This document shows positions 5,803-20,359 of a DNA stretch of 20,359 nucleotides, in pieces. Where the stretch lies: positions 1 through 20,359 of the IMG/VR virus record IMGVR_UViG_3300032293_000024; one strand, written 5' to 3'. The notes beneath the pieces are model-generated. The model did no database searches, was not told where the DNA came from, and was given only the letters and a program-made list of their open reading frames with translations. The DNA comes from a virus. Positions within the stretch are counted from its first letter, which is position 1. Every line of letters begins with the position of its first letter. The position numbers and the translations under genes are program-made.

Positions 5803-6290
5803 TAGACAAACTTCCCGCGAGTCTTACCCTTGGTCACGCAGCCATCAGCACGCTTGGAAGCAGACGAGACGGAGCCGCCCTTCTTCATCTTCTTGACCCC
5901 GCCGCCTTTGCTATACCCCGGCGAATCATCTTCAGAACTACCCTGAAACCGGGCAGCGCCTCGACGCATAGCACGATCCATATCACCCTGCTTTAAAGCA
6001 AGATACATTTTTGGATCTTCTTCACGCATTTTTTCAAGCCGCATACCGGCATCAGCCAATTCTGAACGAACGGCCAAATCTCTGTCTTTTTCAGACATAG
6101 CCCGACGCGGATTGCTCAAAGCACGATCTTTATCGCTGATTAACTCTTCGTAGTCGTATAGACCGCGACCACGAAATTGATTGATCTTAGAGGGATTATA
6201 TATGCCCGACTCGCCGTATCTTTTTTCAGCACGATCAAGGATGCCCTGCCGTTTACCACGCGCAGCAGTACCGCGTTGCGGGCCAGCCAT
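5802..6290 (-). CDS. Basic protein with SASKRADG C-terminal motif
   Basis: The 162-residue protein begins MAGPQRGTAARGKRQGILDR. Its middle part (about residues 40-125) is charged and probably helical (SEKDRDLAVRSELADAGMRL), and the C-terminus is Lys/Gly-rich with GYSKGGGVKKMKKGG and then SSASKRADG followed by KGKTRGK. The same C-terminal motif ends the next gene upstream (6290-6532), which implies shared ancestry or a shared target. The start overlaps the upstream stop as TAATG. I do not know its function. AT content is locally higher in the middle part than in neighbouring genes, which may mark a separately acquired segment. Confidence 0.75.
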   Translation of the reverse strand: MAGPQRGTAARGKRQGILDRAEKRYGESGIYNPSKINQFRGRGLYDYEELISDKDRALSNPRRAMSEKDRDLAVRSELADAGMRLEKMREEDPKMYLALKQGDMDRAMRRGAARFQGSSEDDSPGYSKGGGVKKMKKGGSVSSASKRADGCVTKGKTRGKFV

Positions 6291-6532
6291 TAGCAGGTTC
6301 CACCGTAGCGCAACATCTTGCCCTTGGTCTTACCCTTGACAGCAATGCCGTCAGCACGCTTGGAAGCAGAAGAATGAACCTTGCCACCATGCTTATAACC
6401 GGGCATACCGCCACCCATCATGCCCTTCTTGCCACGCATCTCAGCCATCTCGTGCTTGAGCATCGACTTCGGAGCGCCCTTCTTCTTCATGAACGACACT
6501 TCCTTCTTCATCATAGCCTTGGACTCTTTCAT
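6290..6532 (-). CDS. Small Lys/Met-rich protein with SASKRADG motif
   Basis: The 80-residue product begins MKESKAMMKKEVSFMKKKGA, continues with MLKHEMAEMRGKKGMMGGGM, and ends with KHGGKVHSSASKRADG and KGKTKGK. The last part matches the C-terminus of the following gene. It has extreme Lys and Met content, no hydrophobic segment, and only one cysteine, at the C-terminus. Its ATG overlaps the stop of the 49-residue gene upstream by four bases (ATGA), a sign of coupled translation. Homologous small proteins occur next to capsid genes in other phages as far as I recall; the function is unknown. Confidence 0.75.
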   Translation of the reverse strand: MKESKAMMKKEVSFMKKKGAPKSMLKHEMAEMRGKKGMMGGGMPGYKHGGKVHSSASKRADGIAVKGKTKGKMLRYGGTC

Positions 6533-11711: not shown

Positions 11712-11898
11712 CGTCGCGCTCCAAGCGTTTTGCAAGGTCTTTTATGTGGTTCTTCGCGAGGTCTAGACCCTGTAATACCCCGCAAAGACGTTTGTATTCA
11801 CCTTCGTCCAATTTGCCTTGGATAAGGGTGTCTACGATCAACATGCGCTCTTCTTGGAGTTTTGAGTCCAAGTACTCCAGAGCGTTTGAATAACTCAC
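11704..11898 (-). CDS. Small helical phage protein
   Basis: The 64-residue product begins with a GTG codon as MSYSNALEYLDSKLQEERML and continues KLDEGEYKRLCGVLQGLDLA, ending AKRLERDDE. It is wholly helical-looking and strongly charged, a pattern I recall from small proteins next to portal genes in phages. The GTG overlaps the portal stop as GTGA, with AGGGG about ten bases upstream, so translation is likely coupled. Function is unknown; a helper of portal or scaffold assembly is conceivable. Confidence 0.75.
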   Translation of the reverse strand: MSYSNALEYLDSKLQEERMLIVDTLIQGKLDEGEYKRLCGVLQGLDLAKNHIKDLAKRLERDDE

Positions 11899-14417
11899 TT
11901 TTCAGTACCCCTGCGGCGCAGGTCCGCATCGTCCCGCGCCTTGCCGATATCAAGCCCAAGCCGGACCCCCTCGATCTGCTGCTTGGCAGAAAGGGCAGCC
12001 TTGTCCTTCTGGATGTCTACGCCAAGGCGTGCTGCATCAAGCTGCTGCGAAGCGGAGATCTCGGCCTTGCGAAGCTCCAACTCGTCGAGTTTGGCAGCGG
12101 CGTCCACCATATCCTTCTGGGCCTTGCGCTGTTGCTCAGCCATGCGGATCTGCCCGTCCATCTGAGCCTGCTGCGCCTTGGTCTGCGCGGTGAGCTGCTT
12201 GATCTGCAGGTCCATCTGCTGCATCTGGATAAGCGGGTCCTGCATCTGCTGTTGAGCCTGCTGCATCTGCGCTTCGGCCTGATCCTTCTGCAAGACACGC
12301 GCTGCGGCAACCGCAGCAAGCTGAGAAAGCTGAGCCTCGAACTCAGGCGGCAGGTCGTACTCCTCGTTATTATCCTGCGGCAGGGGCGGCAACGCCGCGC
12401 CCAACTGCTTCTCGATCTCACGGCGGTACTGGAACGCCATGTGCTCCATGATGTGCGCTTGGATGGCCGCTTGCATCTGTTGAGCCTGCGGACTCTGTCC
12501 AATCGTCGCAGCGATCTTCGGGTCCTGCATCAGCGCCATGTGGACCTGCATGTGAGCCTCGTGGTCCTGATACATGAACACCTTGGTCGGCTTGCCCGTC
12601 ATCAGGTCCATGTTCTCGGTGATGGGGTCACGAGGCTTGGCATCGGAGGGCAACGGGATGATCTTGTCGGCGTTCTTGACACCAAGCGTCTCGATCATCT
12701 GACGGTGCAGATGCGGCAGGTCATAGATCTGCGGGGCGGTCTGGGACAACTGGAGCACCGCTTGGTACTGCACGATCTTCTGCGACATCGTGGCCGCGTT
12801 CGGGTCCGACACCGGGATGACATCCACGTCATCGTAGTCAGCCTTCTTGGCGCTGCGCTTGCCGACTTCCGGCTCGTACGAATACTCGTCCGGGGTGTTG
12901 TCGCGGATGATGAGGGCGAGGAGCTTGAACTCCTGCTTCATCGTGTAATAGATGCGGGCCTGAACAGCCGTCATCACCTTAAGCACGCGCTCAAGGATGG
13001 CAAGCGTCGTACCAACCGGAGCCTGCGAAGACATGTCCGAGACCTTCAGGTCCGACACCGCAGCAAAACGACGGCCTTCCTCGACGAGTTTGTCCAAGAG
13101 CATCGCAAGGGTCTGCGAGGGTTCTTTATAGGGCAGCGGCAGGATGTTGTCGCGCACCGCACCCGAGGGTACATCTACGTCTCGCCACTCGCCGGGAGCG
13201 ATGGGGGTGTCGTCTCCCTTGATACGCAGGCCACGTGACTTGAGACCACCCGGAAGATTGCTAAGAGTTCCGGCATCGACAAGTTGGCGAAGGAGAGAGG
13301 TCGCGGCCTTGCTGTGCCCACCGATGAGGTGGATAAGCCCGAAATAATAGAAGCCAAAGCCGGGAATATATCCGTAATGGACAAAGTGCTGCCGCTTCTC
13401 TTTAAGTCGGTCATCCTCTCTATAGTTCCTTCGTATCGCCAAGACCGTCCCGGTGCCCTTCTCGATGGTCACCACATAAGGAAGAGCGATGCCTGTCTCG
13501 TTGTTGTCCTCATCCGTATCCGGGTAGCCAGCAAGGTCAAGATTGACATGCATCTCAAGCAACTGGAACCGATTGTCCATCGTGGCTGAGAAGCCTTGGT
13601 CCTCTGCCTTCTGCTTCTCCACCTCGTCCATCGTGCGGACCGGTTCACCCAAGTCGATGTCTCGATAGAACCCTGCGTACTGCAGTTTGATCAGTTCGTT
13701 CTTTGTCTTACGCATCCGGTGCGTGACGCGCTCTGCGGTCTCAAGGTTCGGCGCACCGTAGGGCACGATGATGTCTTCAGCCGGGATATAGATCGCCGCC
13801 TGTCGGGCGAGGCTCGGGTCGAAGTAGACCTTCTTGAAGGCGTTGCCTGCCAAGGCGAGGCTGAGCAGCATCCGCTCGTGCTCCGGGCGGTACTCCTTCA
13901 TGACCTCGGTCAACTGATAGTTCATGTCATCCGAGACACGGATGGCGGAGTCTTTCTTCTCCGGGGTCTCCTTACCAATGATCTTGGTCTTGACCGGCCC
14001 TGCCGCCGGAAAGGTCTCCATGATGGTCTCGGACTGGAACTTGACCGCTGACTCCATCAGGAGGGGGTGGAACACGCCACACGCACCCGGCCACGGCTCC
14101 GTACGCTCTTCGTACCGGATGCCAAGGATCTTCAGCCCTTTGACATAAGTGTCCAGCCAGTCCTTGCGGCTGGAGAGGTCCTGCTCATAGTTCCCGATCA
14201 ACTCACTTGCCAGACTCTGCAAGTCTCCCTCGCTCATGTACTCCGCGAGGTTGGCGTCGAAGTCCTCGGCACGAGGCTCATCTTTCATCAGCTCGATGAG
14301 AGCGCCGTCTAGGTTGATGCGGACCGCTTCGGGGTCTTCTATCTCAATCTGGATGTCAGGCTCGACAGCGGCACCAATGCCAACCGGAGCTTCATACAGT
14401 GCTTTGTCAATGGCCAT
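11895..14417 (-). CDS. Portal protein
   Basis: This 840-residue protein is the head vertex portal, a dodecameric ring through which DNA enters and leaves. Typical features are the N-terminal WLDTYVKGLKILGIRYEERT and EPWPGACGVFHPLLMESAVK segments (about residues 85-130), then PEHERMLLSLALAGNAFKKV and YIPAEDIIVPYGAPNLETAE (about 180-225), and a central helical part (LAILERVLKVMTAVQARIYY) that would form stem and wing. From about residue 690 it is a long Gln/Met/Ala-rich coiled coil (AEAQMQQAQQQMQDP). That is the barrel-type extension seen in long portals of P22- or SU10-like phages. It lies ten bases after TerL. The ribosome site is TAGGAGAATTTAG. Confidence 0.9.
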   Translation of the reverse strand: MAIDKALYEAPVGIGAAVEPDIQIEIEDPEAVRINLDGALIELMKDEPRAEDFDANLAEYMSEGDLQSLASELIGNYEQDLSSRKDWLDTYVKGLKILGIRYEERTEPWPGACGVFHPLLMESAVKFQSETIMETFPAAGPVKTKIIGKETPEKKDSAIRVSDDMNYQLTEVMKEYRPEHERMLLSLALAGNAFKKVYFDPSLARQAAIYIPAEDIIVPYGAPNLETAERVTHRMRKTKNELIKLQYAGFYRDIDLGEPVRTMDEVEKQKAEDQGFSATMDNRFQLLEMHVNLDLAGYPDTDEDNNETGIALPYVVTIEKGTGTVLAIRRNYREDDRLKEKRQHFVHYGYIPGFGFYYFGLIHLIGGHSKAATSLLRQLVDAGTLSNLPGGLKSRGLRIKGDDTPIAPGEWRDVDVPSGAVRDNILPLPYKEPSQTLAMLLDKLVEEGRRFAAVSDLKVSDMSSQAPVGTTLAILERVLKVMTAVQARIYYTMKQEFKLLALIIRDNTPDEYSYEPEVGKRSAKKADYDDVDVIPVSDPNAATMSQKIVQYQAVLQLSQTAPQIYDLPHLHRQMIETLGVKNADKIIPLPSDAKPRDPITENMDLMTGKPTKVFMYQDHEAHMQVHMALMQDPKIAATIGQSPQAQQMQAAIQAHIMEHMAFQYRREIEKQLGAALPPLPQDNNEEYDLPPEFEAQLSQLAAVAAARVLQKDQAEAQMQQAQQQMQDPLIQMQQMDLQIKQLTAQTKAQQAQMDGQIRMAEQQRKAQKDMVDAAAKLDELELRKAEISASQQLDAARLGVDIQKDKAALSAKQQIEGVRLGLDIGKARDDADLRRRGTEK

Positions 14418-14427
14418 CTAAATTCTC

Positions 14428-15939
14428 CTAGTAGTAGGCTTCGCGTCGGTGGCTCTTGAACCACTTCGTCGGCTCTGGCTCGTCTGTCGGCAGGCGGATG
14501 AACCCGCCCTGCCTGAACCTCAAGAGTGCCAAAGTCGTCGCGTCAACCAAGTCGTCGTTAGACCCGCTCGGGAAGTCGTTGCACTCCTCGACCACCTCCC
14601 AAGCCCAGCGGCGGTCTGGGACCCAGACTATACCGGAAGAGAAGAGGTCTGATACGGCGTTTACTCTGCTTATCTTGTCCTGACCCTTGCCCGGCGTGAA
14701 CTCTGAGATGGGCACCCCCATCCGACGCATCTCCTGATAGAGCGCCGCACCGTTCGATTTCTTCTCGACGATGAAGGTGTCGGGCTGCCAGTCCTTGTAC
14801 TCCTCCAGCACCAACTGCTTCAGTTCCGGGAACTCCAACCGCTGCTTGATGGAGTTCAACAGGATGATGTTGTAGTTTTTAGTCTCTTCGTTGAAAAACA
14901 CCCCCCAAGTCAGGAGGGCGTTGAAGTCCGACCGGTTGGTCTTTTCTTGGGCAGCGTCGAGCGACAGGATGATGTGTTCACAGTGGGGTGGGTCCTCCTT
15001 GTCCCAGACCTGCCACCACTCGCGCTTGATGAGGGCACCTTCCTCCGAAGTCGGCTGCTGCATGTACTGGGCCTGCCAGTACCGCACGTCCATCGAAGCC
15101 TTCTTGCCCATCAACTCGTCTATGCTCCAGAACTCTGGCCATAGCGGTTTCTCGTTCAGGATTGCCGGGAATTCGACCACTTCCCACTCATCTGCCTCGT
15201 CTTCGCGGGTCATGTGGTCCACGATTTTGCCGGTCAGGTCCATCTTCGACCACCGGGTCATCACCACGATAATTGAGCCACCCGGCATCAGTCGCTGGAC
15301 AGGGCCTGACTGGAACCACTCCCATGCTGGCTCGAATACGTCTGCGCGACCTTGTTTAGCTTCCTGTTCAGAATGAGGGTCGTCAATAATAAAGAGATCG
15401 GCACCACGGCCAGCAAGAGCGCCGCCAACGCCAATAGCGAAATACTCACCGTTAAAATTCGTACCCCAACGAGACGCAGACTTGCTGTCGGCTTGGAGAG
15501 ATACATTGGGGAAGATGTCACGATACGACTCCGAACCGACCAAGTTACGCACCCGACGACCGAAGTTCACCGCCAAATCGGCGGTGTGGGACGCCATGAT
15601 GACCTTTTTCTGCGGGTTTTTGCCTAAGAACCAAGCAGGGGCTAGGTACGAGATCATCTCGCTCTTGCCATGACGCGGAGCGATGTTGACGATGACTCTT
15701 CTCTTCTTGCCTGCCTCGATATCCTCGAAGATTTTAGCCAATCTCTGATGGTGCGGACCCACTTTGTAGCCCGGATAGACGTGCTGGATGAAGTCTAGGA
15801 ACGAATCTTTGCCCAACTTCTGCGTGATCTGGGTCTGATACTGCTTAAGAAGCTCAGCGACACGCCGTTTTTCCTTCTCCGGCATGGTAGGAAGGGCAGT
15901 TTTCAGCTTTTCGAGGCTTTCAGGCGTCAGTTGCAGCAC
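14428..15939 (-). CDS. terL: Terminase large subunit (TerL)
   Basis: This 503-residue packaging motor has both expected domains. The ATPase carries Walker A APRHGKSE (residues 87-94), Walker B LFIIDDPHSE (182-191) and a TRW coupling motif (228-230). The C-terminal RNase H-fold nuclease shows SLDAA (D328), IVEKKSNG (about 390-397) and NDDLVDAT (D462, D463, D466), which would bind metal and cut the concatemer. It pumps DNA into the procapsid through the adjacent portal. The start is a GTG overlapping the upstream gene by 20 bases with a weak ribosome site; an ATG at 15885 is an alternative. All key residues are present. Confidence 0.95.
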   Translation of the reverse strand: MLQLTPESLEKLKTALPTMPEKEKRRVAELLKQYQTQITQKLGKDSFLDFIQHVYPGYKVGPHHQRLAKIFEDIEAGKKRRVIVNIAPRHGKSEMISYLAPAWFLGKNPQKKVIMASHTADLAVNFGRRVRNLVGSESYRDIFPNVSLQADSKSASRWGTNFNGEYFAIGVGGALAGRGADLFIIDDPHSEQEAKQGRADVFEPAWEWFQSGPVQRLMPGGSIIVVMTRWSKMDLTGKIVDHMTREDEADEWEVVEFPAILNEKPLWPEFWSIDELMGKKASMDVRYWQAQYMQQPTSEEGALIKREWWQVWDKEDPPHCEHIILSLDAAQEKTNRSDFNALLTWGVFFNEETKNYNIILLNSIKQRLEFPELKQLVLEEYKDWQPDTFIVEKKSNGAALYQEMRRMGVPISEFTPGKGQDKISRVNAVSDLFSSGIVWVPDRRWAWEVVEECNDFPSGSNDDLVDATTLALLRFRQGGFIRLPTDEPEPTKWFKSHRREAYY

Positions 15940-16680: not shown

Positions 16681-16767
16681 CGGGGTCGGCGCGGCGGACA
16701 AGGTGAGCCGGGCGGACGGGACGGCCTAGCGGTCGGGGTCGGCGCGGCGGACGGGATGGCCTAGCGG
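16681..16767. repeat. GC-rich imperfect repeats with CCTAGCGG
   Basis: CGGGGTCGGCGCGGCGGAC occurs at 16681-16699 and again at 16734-16752. A 21-base unit ending GGCCTAGCGG occurs at 16712-16732 and 16747-16767 with one difference. The units interleave, suggesting past duplication or slippage. Confidence 0.75.
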
Positions 16768-16868
16768 CGCGTATCTGTTTCTGACTGTACCGGGCCGCGC
16801 CATGTCGGGCCGGGTCGGGGCCGCGCTAACCCCGTGGGGATCATGTAGCACCCGGCGGACCGCGCCGG

Positions 16869-16931
16869 GCCTAGCGGGTCGGGCAAGCCTAGCGGGTCGG
16901 GCAAGCCTAGCGGGTCGGGCAAGCCTAGCGG
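16869..16931. repeat. 18-bp tandem repeat, 3.5 copies
   Basis: The unit GCCTAGCGGGTCGGGCAA occurs three times exactly at 16869-16886, 16887-16904 and 16905-16922, followed by half a copy (16923-16931). Each copy contains CCTAGCGG, the box also found at 16725, 16760 and 19396. Confidence 0.95.
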
Positions 16932-16971
16932 ACGGGGTGAGCGGTGCAACAGAATTCTGCTAAATTCCCGC

Positions 16972-17425
16972 TGACACAAGCGCAACCCATTGGCGCGGCT
17001 GGGGTTTTTGGGCCGTGTCCCGGCCTTGTGTCAAAGGTAGATTCTAGCAACACAAGGTAAAGCATTGAAATACAAGGGAAAAAACCGGGTCTGTGCCGTT
17101 GTGTCAGCAAAATTGGGGGGGCGGGGGGAAATGCAGTAGCGCGACGGGATGAAAAAGGCACCGCCGCAAGTGTCCCCGAAACTAAAAAACATTTTGCCGG
17201 ACGCTCATTTTTTAAAAATCGCCTTTTTCTGACACAAAACGCCTTTTATATTCTTTATTTATTACTATCTATATCTAATAAAATCAATAACTTACGCCCC
17301 GACACGCCCGGTTTTTCGCAAAAATAAGTAAAGAAAAACCCGCACAAAACTTGACACAAGAAACGCGTAACCTATTGATTTTATTAAACTTTTTTTGTGT
17401 CAGCATTTTTGACCCGCTGACACAA
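16972..17425. repeat. Seven TGACACAA boxes in both orientations (iteron-like)
   Basis: TGACACAA occurs exactly at 16972-16979, 17230-17237, 17352-17359 and 17418-17425. Its inverse TTGTGTCA occurs at 17026-17033, 17099-17106 and 17395-17402. Several copies extend to GCTGACACAAGCG (16970 and 17416). Such density is far above chance for an 8-mer. I noticed no other exact copy in the window. They look like protein-binding sites for a replication initiator or transcription regulator. Confidence 0.85.
17276..17386. repeat. 14-bp perfect inverted repeat with a nested hairpin
   Basis: TAATAAAATCAATA (17276-17289) is the exact inverse complement of TATTGATTTTATTA (17373-17386), 83 bases apart. Inside, GGTTTTTC (17310-17317) and GAAAAACC (17333-17340) can form an 8-bp stem with a 15-base loop, and one TGACACAA box (17352) also lies inside. 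The surrounding DNA is AT-rich, unlike the rest of the window. Confidence 0.8.
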
Positions 17426-17489: not shown

Positions 17490-17518
17490 GTGTTGTAGGT
17501 TGTAAAGATATGTATACT
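17490..17518 (+). promoter_or_regulatory. Candidate promoter of the rightward operon
   Basis: TATACT (17513-17518) is a good -10 box, preceded by TG directly. The region 17-18 bases upstream (GTGTTG) is a poor -35. It is placed about 40 bases before the first rightward ATG, where a promoter is expected. Confidence 0.45.
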
Positions 17519-17540
17519 AACTAGGTCGATTCCCTCACCT

Positions 17541-17710
17541 ACCGGAGAACACAACATGACACGCAAGCGAAACAGAAAAGGGACGCACCTAGTCCGCCAC
17601 GCTCTTGCATGGGCCGTGATTTTATTCGGTGTGTTTTTTATCGGAACGGGCCTTGCGGCCTTTCGCACCATCACCCTGCACTAAACCGGAGAACACAACA
17701 TGACACGCAA
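17541..17710 (+). repeat. Duplicated 26-base translation start region
   Basis: The same 26 bases, running from ACCGGAGAACACAAC through ATG and the next codons, occur at 17541-17566 and 17685-17710. Each copy supplies the ribosome site (GGAG) and the first residues (MTR) of a gene. Confidence 0.9.
17556..17684 (+). CDS. 42-residue single-span membrane protein
   Basis: The frame encodes MTRKRNRKGTHLVRHALAWA, then VILFGVFFIGTGLAAF, and ends RTITLH. The positively charged N-terminus followed by one hydrophobic helix of about 20 residues (approximately 17-36) predicts an inner-membrane protein with its N-terminus in the cytoplasm. The ribosome site GGAG lies nine bases upstream, and the same start region is repeated before the next gene. 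It is the first gene of the rightward block. Small early membrane proteins of phages can modify host membranes or block superinfection, but nothing here fixes the role. Confidence 0.65.
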   Translation: MTRKRNRKGTHLVRHALAWAVILFGVFFIGTGLAAFRTITLH

Positions 17711-17903
17711 CCAACGGCGCGAAGCGTTAAAGGCCGAAACCGTCGCCGCTATCAATCCCGCCATGTCCGCTCGAATGCTCGCCGCGCTACATCGTGCCGC
17801 ATCCCGACGCAGTCAAGAGCAGATTGAAATGGTTATCGGGCGGCTAGGCTTATGGGGCCACTTGATCGAATGCAACGGCGCATTGATACCGGCGGAGGGC
17901 TGA
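17700..17903 (+). CDS. Small early-region protein, unknown
   Basis: The 67-residue product begins MTRNQRREALKAETVAAINP and continues AMSARMLAALHRAASRRSQE, ending with GRLGLWGHLIECNGALIPAE. It is basic in its first half and probably helical, with no recognisable domain. The start region is a 26-base duplicate of that of the preceding gene, so the ATG is well supported. It ends three bases before the next ATG, indicating one operon. I do not recognise a family. Nucleic acid binding is conceivable from the arginine-rich helices only. Confidence 0.7.
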   Translation: MTRNQRREALKAETVAAINPAMSARMLAALHRAASRRSQEQIEMVIGRLGLWGHLIECNGALIPAEG

Positions 17904-17906
17904 ACC

Positions 17907-18383
17907 ATGCATACCGTAGAAATTCAGGTTTTTACCTTTAGCGAATTGTCCGACCGGGCGAAAGAGGCCGCACGGGATTGGTGGCGCAATTGTGACCCCT
18001 ACCCTTGGAGTGACGAAAACCGGGATAGCATAGAAAAATTTTGCGATAGGTATGGGGCGCGGCTAAAGGATTGGACGGTCGGGCCTTATGCGCCTATCGA
18101 CTACCGGTTAGAGATGCCGCCGGGGATGCTACGCGGGGTTAAGTTGCGGGACATCAACCGGGACGCAATGCCGACCGGGTATTGCCTAGACGGTGCGCTA
18201 TATCAGACCTTTCACGATGAATGGAAGCGGACCGGCGACCCCCGCGCCGCCTTTGATGCTGCGATACACGCGGCCTTTCATGAATGGCGTGAGGACTGGG
18301 AGCATTCGCTATCTGATGAGGCCGTGGACGAAAGCCTAGAAATTAACGAGTACACCTTTACCGCTGACGGTCGCATTTTTTAA
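17907..18383 (+). CDS. Conserved phage protein, sometimes annotated antitoxin-like
   Basis: The 158-residue protein begins MHTVEIQVFTFSELSDRAKE and continues AARDWWR, with CLDGALYQTFHDEWKRTGDP in the middle and LSDEAVDESLEINEYTFTAD at the end. I recognise this as a family common in phages and prophages of proteobacteria, at times labelled as a toxin-antitoxin stability protein without strong proof. It is acidic and rich in Trp and Tyr. No partner toxin is evident nearby. The hammerhead ribozyme lies directly after its stop codon. The real function is unknown. Confidence 0.8.
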   Translation: MHTVEIQVFTFSELSDRAKEAARDWWRNCDPYPWSDENRDSIEKFCDRYGARLKDWTVGPYAPIDYRLEMPPGMLRGVKLRDINRDAMPTGYCLDGALYQTFHDEWKRTGDPRAAFDAAIHAAFHEWREDWEHSLSDEAVDESLEINEYTFTADGRIF

Positions 18384-18388
18384 ACCCA

Positions 18389-18440
18389 AGGCGAAACCGA
18401 CGCGAGTCGGTCGCACCGTGAAGCGGTGCCTGATGAGCCT
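18389..18440 (+). ncRNA. Type II hammerhead self-cleaving ribozyme
   Basis: Every conserved core position is present. GAA (18393-18395, positions 12-14) is followed by A15.1 (18396). Stem III ACCGAC/GTCGGT is closed by a GCGA loop (18396-18411) and includes the A15.1-U16.1 pair. C17 is at 18412. Stem I GCACCG/CGGTGC has loop TGAAG (18413-18429). CTGATGA is at 18430-18436 (positions 3-9). Stem II AGGC (18389-18392) pairs with GCCT (18437-18440), starting with the canonical C11.1-G10.1. Cleavage is expected between 18412 and 18413. Stem II is the open helix, which defines type II. It lies in the 85-base gap between two genes of one operon. Activity is untested. Confidence 0.9.
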
Positions 18441-18468
18441 AGACCCACTAGATCAAAACGAGGACAAC

Positions 18469-19008
18469 ATGGACACGACACCCGACGCCCTTAAAGTTTC
18501 GATTCTCGCCGCGCTCGACCGGTTTATCCGTCAGCGGCCGGGCTTGGAGTACGGTAACTACGGCGACCCGCAAGCCTACCGCGCTGAAATGCGGAGAATC
18601 ACGCGGGACTTGAACCATGCGCGGGTTTTGCTGCGGCGGATTGAATGGTCGAGCATCGCCGGGCAGGAATTGCTAGACGCGGCACGCGGTGGAAGGTTGA
18701 GCATTGAAGCGACCCCGGACGGGGTAAAGGTGGATTATTGCACGGGCCAGTACTTCCCCACGGAATACCGCCGGGCGGTGGCTGCATTGTGCGCGAGTGC
18801 CTTATGGGATTGGACGCGTGAAAATTCAATGCCGGAGCCGGAGTACAGAACCCACGGAACCCCGGCGAAGTCTACGCGGAACCCCGGTTATCCCGACGCC
18901 CCCTTGCATACGGTCGCGACCTTTAACGGTCTATCCGCAGGGGATTGGATGCGCCGACACTTTCGGCGCGAATTTGGGCGCGGCCTTGCGTCCCGGTTTT
19001 TTAACTGA
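18469..19008 (+). CDS. Conserved phage protein downstream of the ribozyme
   Basis: The 179-residue protein begins MDTTPDALKVSILAALDRFI, followed by RQRPGLEYGNYGDPQAYRAE, and contains VDYCTGQYFPTEYRRAVAAL and, at the end, DWMRRHFRREFGRGLASRFF. These are segments I recall from a family of phage early proteins. I start at the ATG at 18469 because GAGGA stands just upstream; the longer frame from 18418 would begin inside the ribozyme and lacks a ribosome site. After ribozyme cleavage its message would start at 18413 with a hairpin and a 56-base leader. The biochemical role is unknown. Confidence 0.8.
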   Translation: MDTTPDALKVSILAALDRFIRQRPGLEYGNYGDPQAYRAEMRRITRDLNHARVLLRRIEWSSIAGQELLDAARGGRLSIEATPDGVKVDYCTGQYFPTEYRRAVAALCASALWDWTRENSMPEPEYRTHGTPAKSTRNPGYPDAPLHTVATFNGLSAGDWMRRHFRREFGRGLASRFFN

Positions 19009-19020
19009 GGGGGGCGAAGC

Positions 19021-19329
19021 ATGACAAACGAAACAGGGGTACGGGAATGGTGGTCGGATTCGCACGGGTATATAGAGCTACAGTTAGACCTTGAGGATGC
19101 GGCGACGGGTTACCATTCGGGACAATGCGACGATGACATAGCCGCTTTGCGTGCCGTGCCGTATATCGCGGAACAGTTAGAAAGACTCGACCCTGAAACC
19201 GTGGCGCTTAGCTTGCGAGGATGGGGCGCGTGGGATAACGCGGAATTGGCGAAGCATGATGACAACCTTTCCCGCCTTTTGTGGCTGGCGTGCGCGGATA
19301 TTGCGGAACAATGCGAGCGGCAAAAATAA
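19021..19329 (+). CDS. Small acidic early-region protein
   Basis: The 102-residue product begins MTNETGVREWWSDSHGYIEL and includes CDDDIAALRAVPYIAEQLER and ETVALSLRGWGAWDNAELAK. It is acidic and mostly helical, with no membrane segment. The strong GAGGGGGG sequence about eight bases before the ATG supports the start. It is the last gene before an intrinsic terminator, so it ends the first rightward operon. Similar small proteins occur with the two preceding genes in other phages as far as I recall. Function is unknown. Confidence 0.75.
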   Translation: MTNETGVREWWSDSHGYIELQLDLEDAATGYHSGQCDDDIAALRAVPYIAEQLERLDPETVALSLRGWGAWDNAELAKHDDNLSRLLWLACADIAEQCERQK

Positions 19330-19363
19330 TGCTATAGGCTAACCCGTTTTGTCCGGTGAGCTT

Positions 19364-19391
19364 GGGGCGGGACCGACACCGCCCCCTTTTT
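19364..19391 (+). terminator. Intrinsic terminator of the first rightward operon
   Basis: GGGGCGG (19364-19370) and CCGCCCC (19379-19385) form a 7-bp GC stem with an 8-base loop, followed by C and TTTTT (19387-19391). It stands 34 bases after the stop of the preceding gene. Confidence 0.85.
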
Positions 19392-19424
19392 GATCCCTAG
19401 CGGCCCGACCCACCCGACCCCGCC

Positions 19425-19577
19425 GTGCGAGCCTGAAATAAAACCGGGTGCGAGCGTGTGCGAGCCGGATAGGTCCGGTGCGAGCAGGGCCGGGAAAAAC
19501 TAGGTGCGAGCGGGTGCGACCGCTCCGCCAAAAAAGATTGAAAAAAAGTGGTTTGGCGTACTTGACAGGGTGCGAGC
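19425..19577 (+). repeat. GTGCGAGC direct repeat cluster
   Basis: GTGCGAGC occurs at 19425, 19448, 19458, 19478, 19504 and 19570, with a variant GTGCGACC at 19514. Several steps are 10 or 20 bases (19448 to 19458 to 19478; 19504 to 19514), so those copies would lie on one face of the helix. The last copy lies between the -35 and -10 boxes of the promoter. A CCTAGCGG box at 19396 is shared with the other control region. Confidence 0.85.
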
Positions 19578-19589
19578 CGGTGGTACTAT
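19562..19589 (+). promoter_or_regulatory. Promoter of the second rightward operon
   Basis: A perfect TTGACA (19562-19567) is followed by a 16-base spacer and TACTAT (19584-19589). A GTGCGAGC box fills part of the spacer, and AGCCG/CGGCT (19575-19579, 19590-19594) flanks the -10 box as an inverted repeat. The next gene starts about 50 bases downstream. Confidence 0.75.
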
Positions 19590-19645
19590 CGGCTACACTG
19601 TAAAGAAACATTGTTTTACTCAACTAACCAATGAGGATGCGAACG

Positions 19646-20017
19646 ATGGCTAAAAAGAAATTCGCCCGTGAATGCACAGCGTGTAAGGGCGGCATGAACG
19701 AGGGCTACTGCATCGAGTCGGGCATCGAGTACTACTGCTCCAAGGTCTGTTTGAACACGGAGATATCCGACGAGGAGTTTGCGGAACTCTACGCCGATGG
19801 TGAGGGCGATTCGTACTGGACTGACTGGAGCGAAGACCCTAACGAGTACCTCGATGATGAGGATGAGCCAAGCGAACAAGAGCGGCTGAACCGCATCGCA
19901 CTTGCATTGCGTAAGGCGTACAAGTTGGTCGAAGAAGGCAGCGAGGCGCATGGCTACATCGCAGAAGCGTTGGCCTATGCAGATGGTGACACGGCTAGTT
20001 TTGATGAGGAGGGGTGA
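19646..20017 (+). CDS. Cys-rich acidic phage protein, probable zinc binding
   Basis: The 123-residue protein begins MAKKKFARECTACKGGMNEG and has C10-x2-C13, then C22, C31 and C35 in the first 36 residues, which suggests a small zinc-binding module. The rest is very acidic (SEDPNEYLDDEDEPSEQE), ending in a helical segment (LRKAYKLVEEGSEAHGYIAE). I chose the ATG at 19646, with GAGG about ten bases upstream, over an ATG at 19631 that lacks one. It is the first gene behind the repeat-controlled promoter. The role is unknown; an acidic, zinc-containing early protein could act on host factors, but this is speculation. Confidence 0.75.
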   Translation: MAKKKFARECTACKGGMNEGYCIESGIEYYCSKVCLNTEISDEEFAELYADGEGDSYWTDWSEDPNEYLDDEDEPSEQERLNRIALALRKAYKLVEEGSEAHGYIAEALAYADGDTASFDEEG

Positions 20018-20018
20018 G

Positions 20019-20345
20019 ATGAAGATTCAATTGGATATCGGCACGATGGACGACGCGCTCTATGACGCGCTGTTGGCTGCGTTCCGCAACGAAGCGGCGA
20101 AGCAAAACCTTCAGCCAGAAAGCGACCTTTACTTTGACGAGTGGGTGGTGTCGTGCGTTGCGATGGGGGAGTCAAGCACGATCAATAAAGAAGGACAAGG
20201 TATGAACGGCACAGACCTACAGATTCTGGAGATGTACTACGGCGGTATGGATGCAGAGGTGATAGCCGATGAACTGCGGCTCTCTGTCGCCACCGTGAAG
20301 GAAGTCATCAAAGCGTTTGAAGACGGCGAGTACAAGACACGCTAG
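20019..20345 (+). CDS. Small protein with C-terminal helix-turn-helix-like segment
   Basis: The 108-residue protein begins MKIQLDIGTMDDALYDALLA. Its last part, ILEMYYGGMDAEVIADELRL then SVATVKEVIKAF (about residues 69-100), resembles a DNA-binding helix-turn-helix of the sigma-region type. The ATG at 20019 follows the previous stop by one base and has GAGGAGGGG upstream. A second in-frame ATG at 20202 with AAGGA before it could start a 47-residue form containing only the helix-turn-helix. A regulatory role is inferred from this segment only. Confidence 0.65.
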   Translation: MKIQLDIGTMDDALYDALLAAFRNEAAKQNLQPESDLYFDEWVVSCVAMGESSTINKEGQGMNGTDLQILEMYYGGMDAEVIADELRLSVATVKEVIKAFEDGEYKTR

Positions 20346-20355
20346 GAGGTGTGAG

Positions 20356-20359
20356 ATGA
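20356..20359 (+). CDS. Start of the next gene (cut by the window edge)
   Basis: AGGAGGT, the full Shine-Dalgarno consensus, overlaps the end of the previous gene and is followed by ATG at 20356. Only four bases of the gene are visible, so nothing can be said of its product. Confidence 0.5.

Follow-up and report, generated by a model that had tools for sequence, protein, structure and literature searches.

A pseudoknot-free type II hammerhead ribozyme motif at a phage gene boundary and its proposed role in separating two cistrons

Here, a complete type II hammerhead ribozyme motif is identified between two co-oriented phage genes, on their sense strand. The window, that is, the whole stretch analyzed, is a complete IMG/VR virus record of 20,359 bases, and the motif occupies positions 18389-18440 of its plus strand. 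With a probability of about 0.7, we propose that this type II hammerhead acts in cis and cleaves itself co-transcriptionally, thereby separating gene 17907-18383 from gene 18469-19008. The case is built from the anatomy of the motif, its position between stop and start codons here and in other phage contigs, and its recurrence beside relatives of the downstream gene.

Anatomy, detection, and setting of the element

The motif has the CUGANGA and GAA core, the A15.1-U16.1 pair, and an H nucleotide at position 17 that define type II, and it has the corresponding topology of three helices, with stems I and III closed by loops and stem II open (Table 1). A reading of the sequence agrees to the base with an initial annotation that had proposed this identity and these boundaries, and the Rfam type II family matches over its full length. 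The cleavage site it predicted, after 18412, coincides with C17, the position of the cut being taken from the hammerhead family, and its two hairpin-capped product ends, stem III upstream and stem I downstream, are borne out by sequence and fold. Energy minimization predicts the hammerhead structure for 18380-18450 (z -2.96) and a mixed structure when 151 nt are folded. A model search with filters off gave no further hammerhead of this kind, nor an appreciable score, elsewhere in the window.

Table 1. Features of the ribozyme motif and its flanking genes (window coordinates)
Feature	Position	Strand	Evidence or remark
Hammerhead ribozyme, type II, assigned to pseudoknot-free subtype	18389-18440	+	Sequence, Rfam, home-made models
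A immediately 5' of stem II	18388	+	A in 42/43 subtype members among the matches listed
Stem II, 5' strand AGGC	18389-18392	+	4 bp with GCCU
Core G12 A13 A14	18393-18395	+	
Stem III hairpin	18396-18411	+	6 bp including A15.1-U16.1; sequence, fold, compensatory A-U to G-C in L007
Stem III strands ACCGAC / GUCGGU	18396-18401 / 18406-18411	+	Loop GCGA, 18402-18405
C17, predicted cut 18412^18413	18412	+	Cut position from hammerhead family
Stem I hairpin	18413-18429	+	6 bp, pentaloop UGAAG 18419-18423; predicted 5' end of downstream product
Stem I strands GCACCG / CGGUGC	18413-18418 / 18424-18429	+	
Core CUGAUGA (C3 to A9)	18430-18436	+	
Stem II, 3' strand GCCU	18437-18440	+	
Upstream gene, 158 aa	17907-18383	+	Match to phrog_10310 (1.3e-15); TAA ends 5 nt before ribozyme
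Probable ribosome-binding site GAGGA	18460-18464	+	
Downstream gene, 179 aa	18469-19008	+	Hammerheads in the retrieved locus of the 94% relative and 9 others among 60 viral relatives
Next gene of putative operon, 102 aa	19021-19329	+	phrog_14450

A search with the Rfam type II model, which had been suggested as a check, returned a match to RF02276 (Hammerhead_II) at 18389-18448 (plus strand) that spans model positions 1-66 of 66 and scores 33.2 bits (E 0.0022 in the whole-Rfam search, 5.3e-7 when that family is searched alone). The match thus runs the full length of the model and misses the curated threshold of 37 bits, which is a search cut-off and not a structural definition. Rfam also matched isrG weakly at 692-772 (18.5 bits against a cut-off of 100), which was dismissed as chance. 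When a covariance model was built from seven other phages with the window left out, the window scored 65.1 bits (E 2.4e-17, with E-values of the home-made models being rough owing to short calibration). A structural descriptor matches once per 12 Mb of random DNA of the window's dinucleotide content, equivalent to 0.0017 expected matches per window. Across 53 model matches, standard pairs fill 99.6% of paired cells and both partners have changed in 14 of 16 pairs, counts that are biased because the alignment is fitted to the structure. Largely free of that bias is a pattern that fixes only the letters of the core and stem II (GGC/GCC): both hairpins are present in 135 of the 163 distinct matches listed, against 0.65 expected after shuffling. 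The descriptor expectation, the leave-one-out score, and this hairpin test together rule out a chance motif.

The left part of the window carries minus-strand genes, including those for the large terminase subunit (14428-15939) and the portal protein (11895-14417), and the right part carries small plus-strand genes at 17700-17903, 17907-18383, 18469-19008, 19021-19329, and 19646-20017, all called by simple open-frame rules. The genes flanking the ribozyme had been termed early, a putative label that derives from their strand, opposite to that of the structural genes. For the downstream gene, a GTG start at 18418 was considered and dropped in favor of the ATG at 18469, which is preceded by GAGGA and leaves 28 nt between ribozyme and start. 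Among annotated phages, the DNA of 17500-20359 has no match and the downstream gene has no relative; the upstream gene has one distant relative, in Pseudomonas phage UAntarctica (29.6%).

Some further features of the window were recorded. Gene 19021-19329 is followed by a terminator-like hairpin with CTTTTT behind it (19364-19390, plus strand), and gene 19646 is preceded by a promoter-like TTGACA-16-TACTAT with a TG (19562-19589, plus strand); the two signals would close the ribozyme-bearing operon, and signals of either kind are no more numerous than expected by chance. The two divergent gene modules are separated by a gap that holds a short tandem repeat (16761-16985, minus strand), a frame of which reads GLPDPLGLPDPLGLPDPLG.

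Placement between stop and start codons

The position of the window element follows a rule that is visible across phage contigs. For 142 of the 207 type II motifs among the matches listed, the distance from stop codon to motif start is -5 to +10 nt, counting only stops that end an open frame of at least 40 codons; the corresponding numbers are 29 for random same-strand sites and 47 for antisense. Within 250 nt downstream, 175 of the 207 motifs listed have a start codon that opens a reading frame and carries a ribosome-binding site, against 101 for random sites and 46 for antisense, and the distance from ribozyme to start among these listed type II motifs has a median of 27 nt and a sharp peak at 20-39 nt. 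Contig L083 (1260-2967, minus strand) illustrates the arrangement, with four consecutive gene junctions that each hold one pseudoknot-free type II hammerhead, 3-7 nt from the stops and 25-31 nt from the starts. As gaps to stop and start are this short, the intergenic gaps hardly exceed the ribozyme plus a ribosome-binding site. Phage type II hammerheads occupy a fixed slot, in most cases starting a few bases from a stop codon and with the next start usually some 20-40 bases on. The mRNA-processing role put forward in the initial annotation gains support from this positional rule in other phage contigs, together with the 5- and 28-nt gaps, the GAGGA, the shared orientation, and the synteny.

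The same proximity to the stop codon bears on a different reading, in which the ribozyme does cut, as a switch regulated by an ion, a protein, or upstream translation and not as a constitutive separator of cistrons. A ribosome terminating at the upstream stop, 5 nt before the motif, would sit on stem II and the GAAA and could time folding; most phage hammerheads of both types likewise have a stop codon at their 5' edge, so that such an overlap would be common, and regulated cleavage has been raised for phage hammerheads (PMC3088659). Compact phage genomes would nevertheless produce this abutment anyway, the motif has no conserved aptamer or extra structure, and arrays over consecutive gene junctions resemble constitutive punctuation. 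We consider regulation of this kind unlikely, and constitutive separation of the two cistrons is the reading we prefer.

Relatives of the locus and their hammerheads

The closest relative is contig 3300034062_002820 (L002/L009), whose proteins are 92-94% identical and whose ribozyme occupies the corresponding junction and differs at one position, in the pentaloop. Identity between the window and L002 is 51/52 in the ribozyme, 31/33 in the rest of the intergenic region, and 168/185 at fourfold sites, the pair being too similar for the comparison to show selection on the motif. Gene 19646-20017, present once in the window, has two related stretches in L002 (7745-8700).

More distant loci are more informative about the structure. 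In L057, where the downstream protein is about 32% identical, the ribozyme lies directly before that gene, and its stem sequences are wholly different while the UGA at the start of the loop is the same and the core is intact. In L007, the ribozyme lies directly before a homologue of the upstream gene and shows a compensatory A-U to G-C swap in stem III as well as a core change of C3 to U. No other conserved core position is altered in L002, L007, or L057; G5, G8, G12, and A14, whose free mutation in homologous phages had been named as grounds for rejecting the motif, are kept in all three. Conservation with compensatory changes is thus observed in L007, in L057, and in further model matches. 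Most relatives of the two flanking genes have no hammerhead, so the ribozyme is dispensable.

Hammerheads of another topology occur next to the downstream gene in related phages. In a set of 60 viral loci that each encode one of its relatives, L032, L035, L037, L040, L044, L045, L046, and L047 hold one to five type I hammerheads each, some of these contigs being close relatives of one another, and the type I descriptor matched nothing when the loci were shuffled. Both L044 and L045 have one type I hammerhead directly before the homologue of the downstream gene and another after it; the last base of the gene in L045 is 6450 and a ribozyme starts at 6451. Most type I motifs lie 0 or -1 nt from the stop, with 14-24 nt to the next start. 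Arrays reach five members, mostly flush with stop codons, as at 5932, 6451, 7168, 7402, and 8045 in L045. Weak type II model matches in L032, L035, L044, and L045 proved to be type I ribozymes caught by the wrong model, and what had looked like a new repeated element in L032-L047 (hairpin-GAAAC-hairpin-GUC) resolved into type I hammerheads once further upstream sequence was included.

These type I ribozymes, for which the nearest Rfam family is RF00163, resemble the window element in occupying slots beside homologues of the same gene, mostly flush with stops, and a 6-bp stem I and a 4-bp stem II with a U-starting loop are listed as shared. They differ in being circularly permuted, with stem I open and stem II closed, and after the predicted cut the ribozyme would stay with the upstream message, unlike that of the window. 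Related phages therefore keep a ribozyme adjoining the downstream gene while its topology differs.

The distribution among relatives could also be read as that of a mobile cassette, with the ribozyme as its boundary and with cleavage or ligation serving the unit of ribozyme and downstream gene instead of phage expression. L003, L004, and L006 retain the upstream gene and gene 19021, and neither a homologue of the downstream gene nor a ribozyme was found in these three loci; the ribozyme of L007 stands before another gene. Against this, no integrase was found beside the ribozyme, the ribozymes of other phages sit at many junctions with unrelated genes, and the presence of both type I and type II next to one gene fits selection for cutting better than transport of a single cassette. 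A cassette boundary is less probable than regulated cleavage, and both are well behind message separation by self-cleavage.

The pseudoknot-free subtype and message separation

The plain type II assignment can be refined, as the pseudoknot typical of type II is absent. The type II sample was collected with the pattern of core and GGC/GCC letters in viral contigs (at least 120 stretches), and among the matches listed its motifs split into groups of 164 and 43, the latter picked by stem lengths and not by loop letters. In the group of 164 listed motifs, stem II is mostly 3 bp, and loop I and the tail share a complement of at least four bases in 62%, against 31% with swapped tails. In the 43 listed, stem-loop I has 6 bp and 5 nt, stem II has at least 4 bp, and loop I-tail complementarity (21%) is close to that with swapped tails (17%); loop I starts with U in 43/43 and ends with a purine in 41/43, and an A precedes stem II in 42/43. 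With its 4-bp stem II preceded by A and a U-NNN-R pentaloop on stem I, the window element is, by sequence, a member of this subtype. A loop I-tail pseudoknot was considered for it and rejected, the longest complement being 3 nt and the subtype being at swapped-tail level; such a pseudoknot with the 3' tail (at least 4 bp) is present in the majority of type II hammerheads and is not required.

At its cut-off, Rfam finds one subtype ribozyme across 27 subtype contigs among the matches listed, and 57 ribozymes across 12 listed contigs of the other type II kind; L007, the 28th subtype contig and the one with the C3-to-U change, is missed as well. Surveys at the Rfam cut-off therefore undercount phage hammerheads. 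Two subtype hammerheads were also noted in L309 (395-471 and 630-698, minus strand), contig JAFSKE010000054.1 of a Synergistaceae metagenome-assembled genome, and virus contig L138, which has a subtype hammerhead, also carries a strong match to Betaproteobacteria-1 RNA (RF02932, 217-340, plus strand, 84.5 bits).

Compared with the type II hammerheads of RF02276 and of Perreault et al. (PMC3088659), the window element has the same core and block order (GAAA, cleavage site, CUGANGA), the same closed stems I and III and open stem II, and the same phage intergenic setting with proposed cutting of long phage transcripts. It differs in having no loop I-tail pseudoknot and a 4-bp instead of a mostly 3-bp stem II, and its subtype differs in the invariant loop U, the near-invariant 5' flanking A, and the sub-cut-off score. 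In an assayed type II example, the pseudoknot was needed for fast cleavage, and pseudoknots were reported in the majority, not all, of type II hammerheads (PMC3088659); as far as the text of that paper goes, members of the subtype may therefore sit in its alignments. Without a pseudoknot, the window ribozyme may cleave slowly, unless a different tertiary contact forms through the conserved loop U and the A before stem II, as it may. It is very improbable that the element is a hammerhead-like hairpin pair that has lost cleavage and serves only in end protection or insulation between cistrons: the sub-cut-off score, the missing pseudoknot, and the inactivity in vitro of 4 of 18 consensus-conforming hammerheads (PMC3088659) point that way, but phages with fully changed stems retain the core, A15.1-U16.1, C17, the loop U, and the flanking A, and core conservation would not be expected of an element with a structural role only.

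Other known hammerheads place the element further. HHphage of haloviruses HF1/HF2 likewise precedes an early phage gene, with a few bases between it and the start codon, and a mapped transcript 5' end falls at most 3 nucleotides from the cleavage site (PMC3088659); it differs in its core insertions near C3, its archaeal host, and its location at the first gene of the transcript, the window element lying between two genes. The non-circularly permuted hammerheads of type SGC (PMC10085705) share the core in another block order, the window element being an ordinary type II (GSC).

We infer the following course of events for the message separation proposed here. A polycistronic plus-strand transcript of the small-gene module would fold at 18389-18440 and be cut after C18412. 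Hammerhead cleavage in cis after C17 yields a 2',3'-cyclic phosphate and a 5'-OH. The upstream message would thus end in the stem III hairpin with the cyclic phosphate, just behind its stop codon, and the downstream message would open with the stem I hairpin, bearing the 5'-OH, 56 nt ahead of the ATG at 18469. The two cistrons would then be translated and would decay separately; judging from general knowledge of RNA decay, the hairpin ends and 5'-OH probably slow 3' exonucleases and 5'-monophosphate-dependent entry of RNase E.

That phage hammerheads separate the cistrons of long phage transcripts was proposed in 2011 by Perreault et al., who also described arrays flanking prophage genes, three of which cleaved in vitro and one in E. 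coli (PMC3088659), and the role of hammerheads in prokaryotes and phages has been described as an open question (PMC6155905). The role is hence already proposed; the present case is distinguished by a subtype that falls below the Rfam cut-off and by a striking stop-to-start placement. What is added beyond the initial annotation is the pseudoknot-free subtype, the fixed slot between stop and start, and the type I hammerheads in slots next to the downstream gene in related phages.

Tentatively, and at slightly under even odds, it could be proposed that many phages use interchangeable hammerheads (type I, pseudoknotted type II, and an overlooked pseudoknot-free type II with its own contact between loop I and the flanking A) as their standard intercistronic punctuation, in the order of stop, ribozyme, about 25 nt, and start. 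If so, the slot is kept while the topology is swapped, and self-cleavage at gene boundaries would itself be under selection in operons of this kind. The subtype is, in addition, a compact natural ribozyme. The placement rule, the array in L083, and the difference between type I and type II lead to testable predictions of fixed cut sites and monocistronic messages, and a change of a core base would be expected to alter expression ratios.
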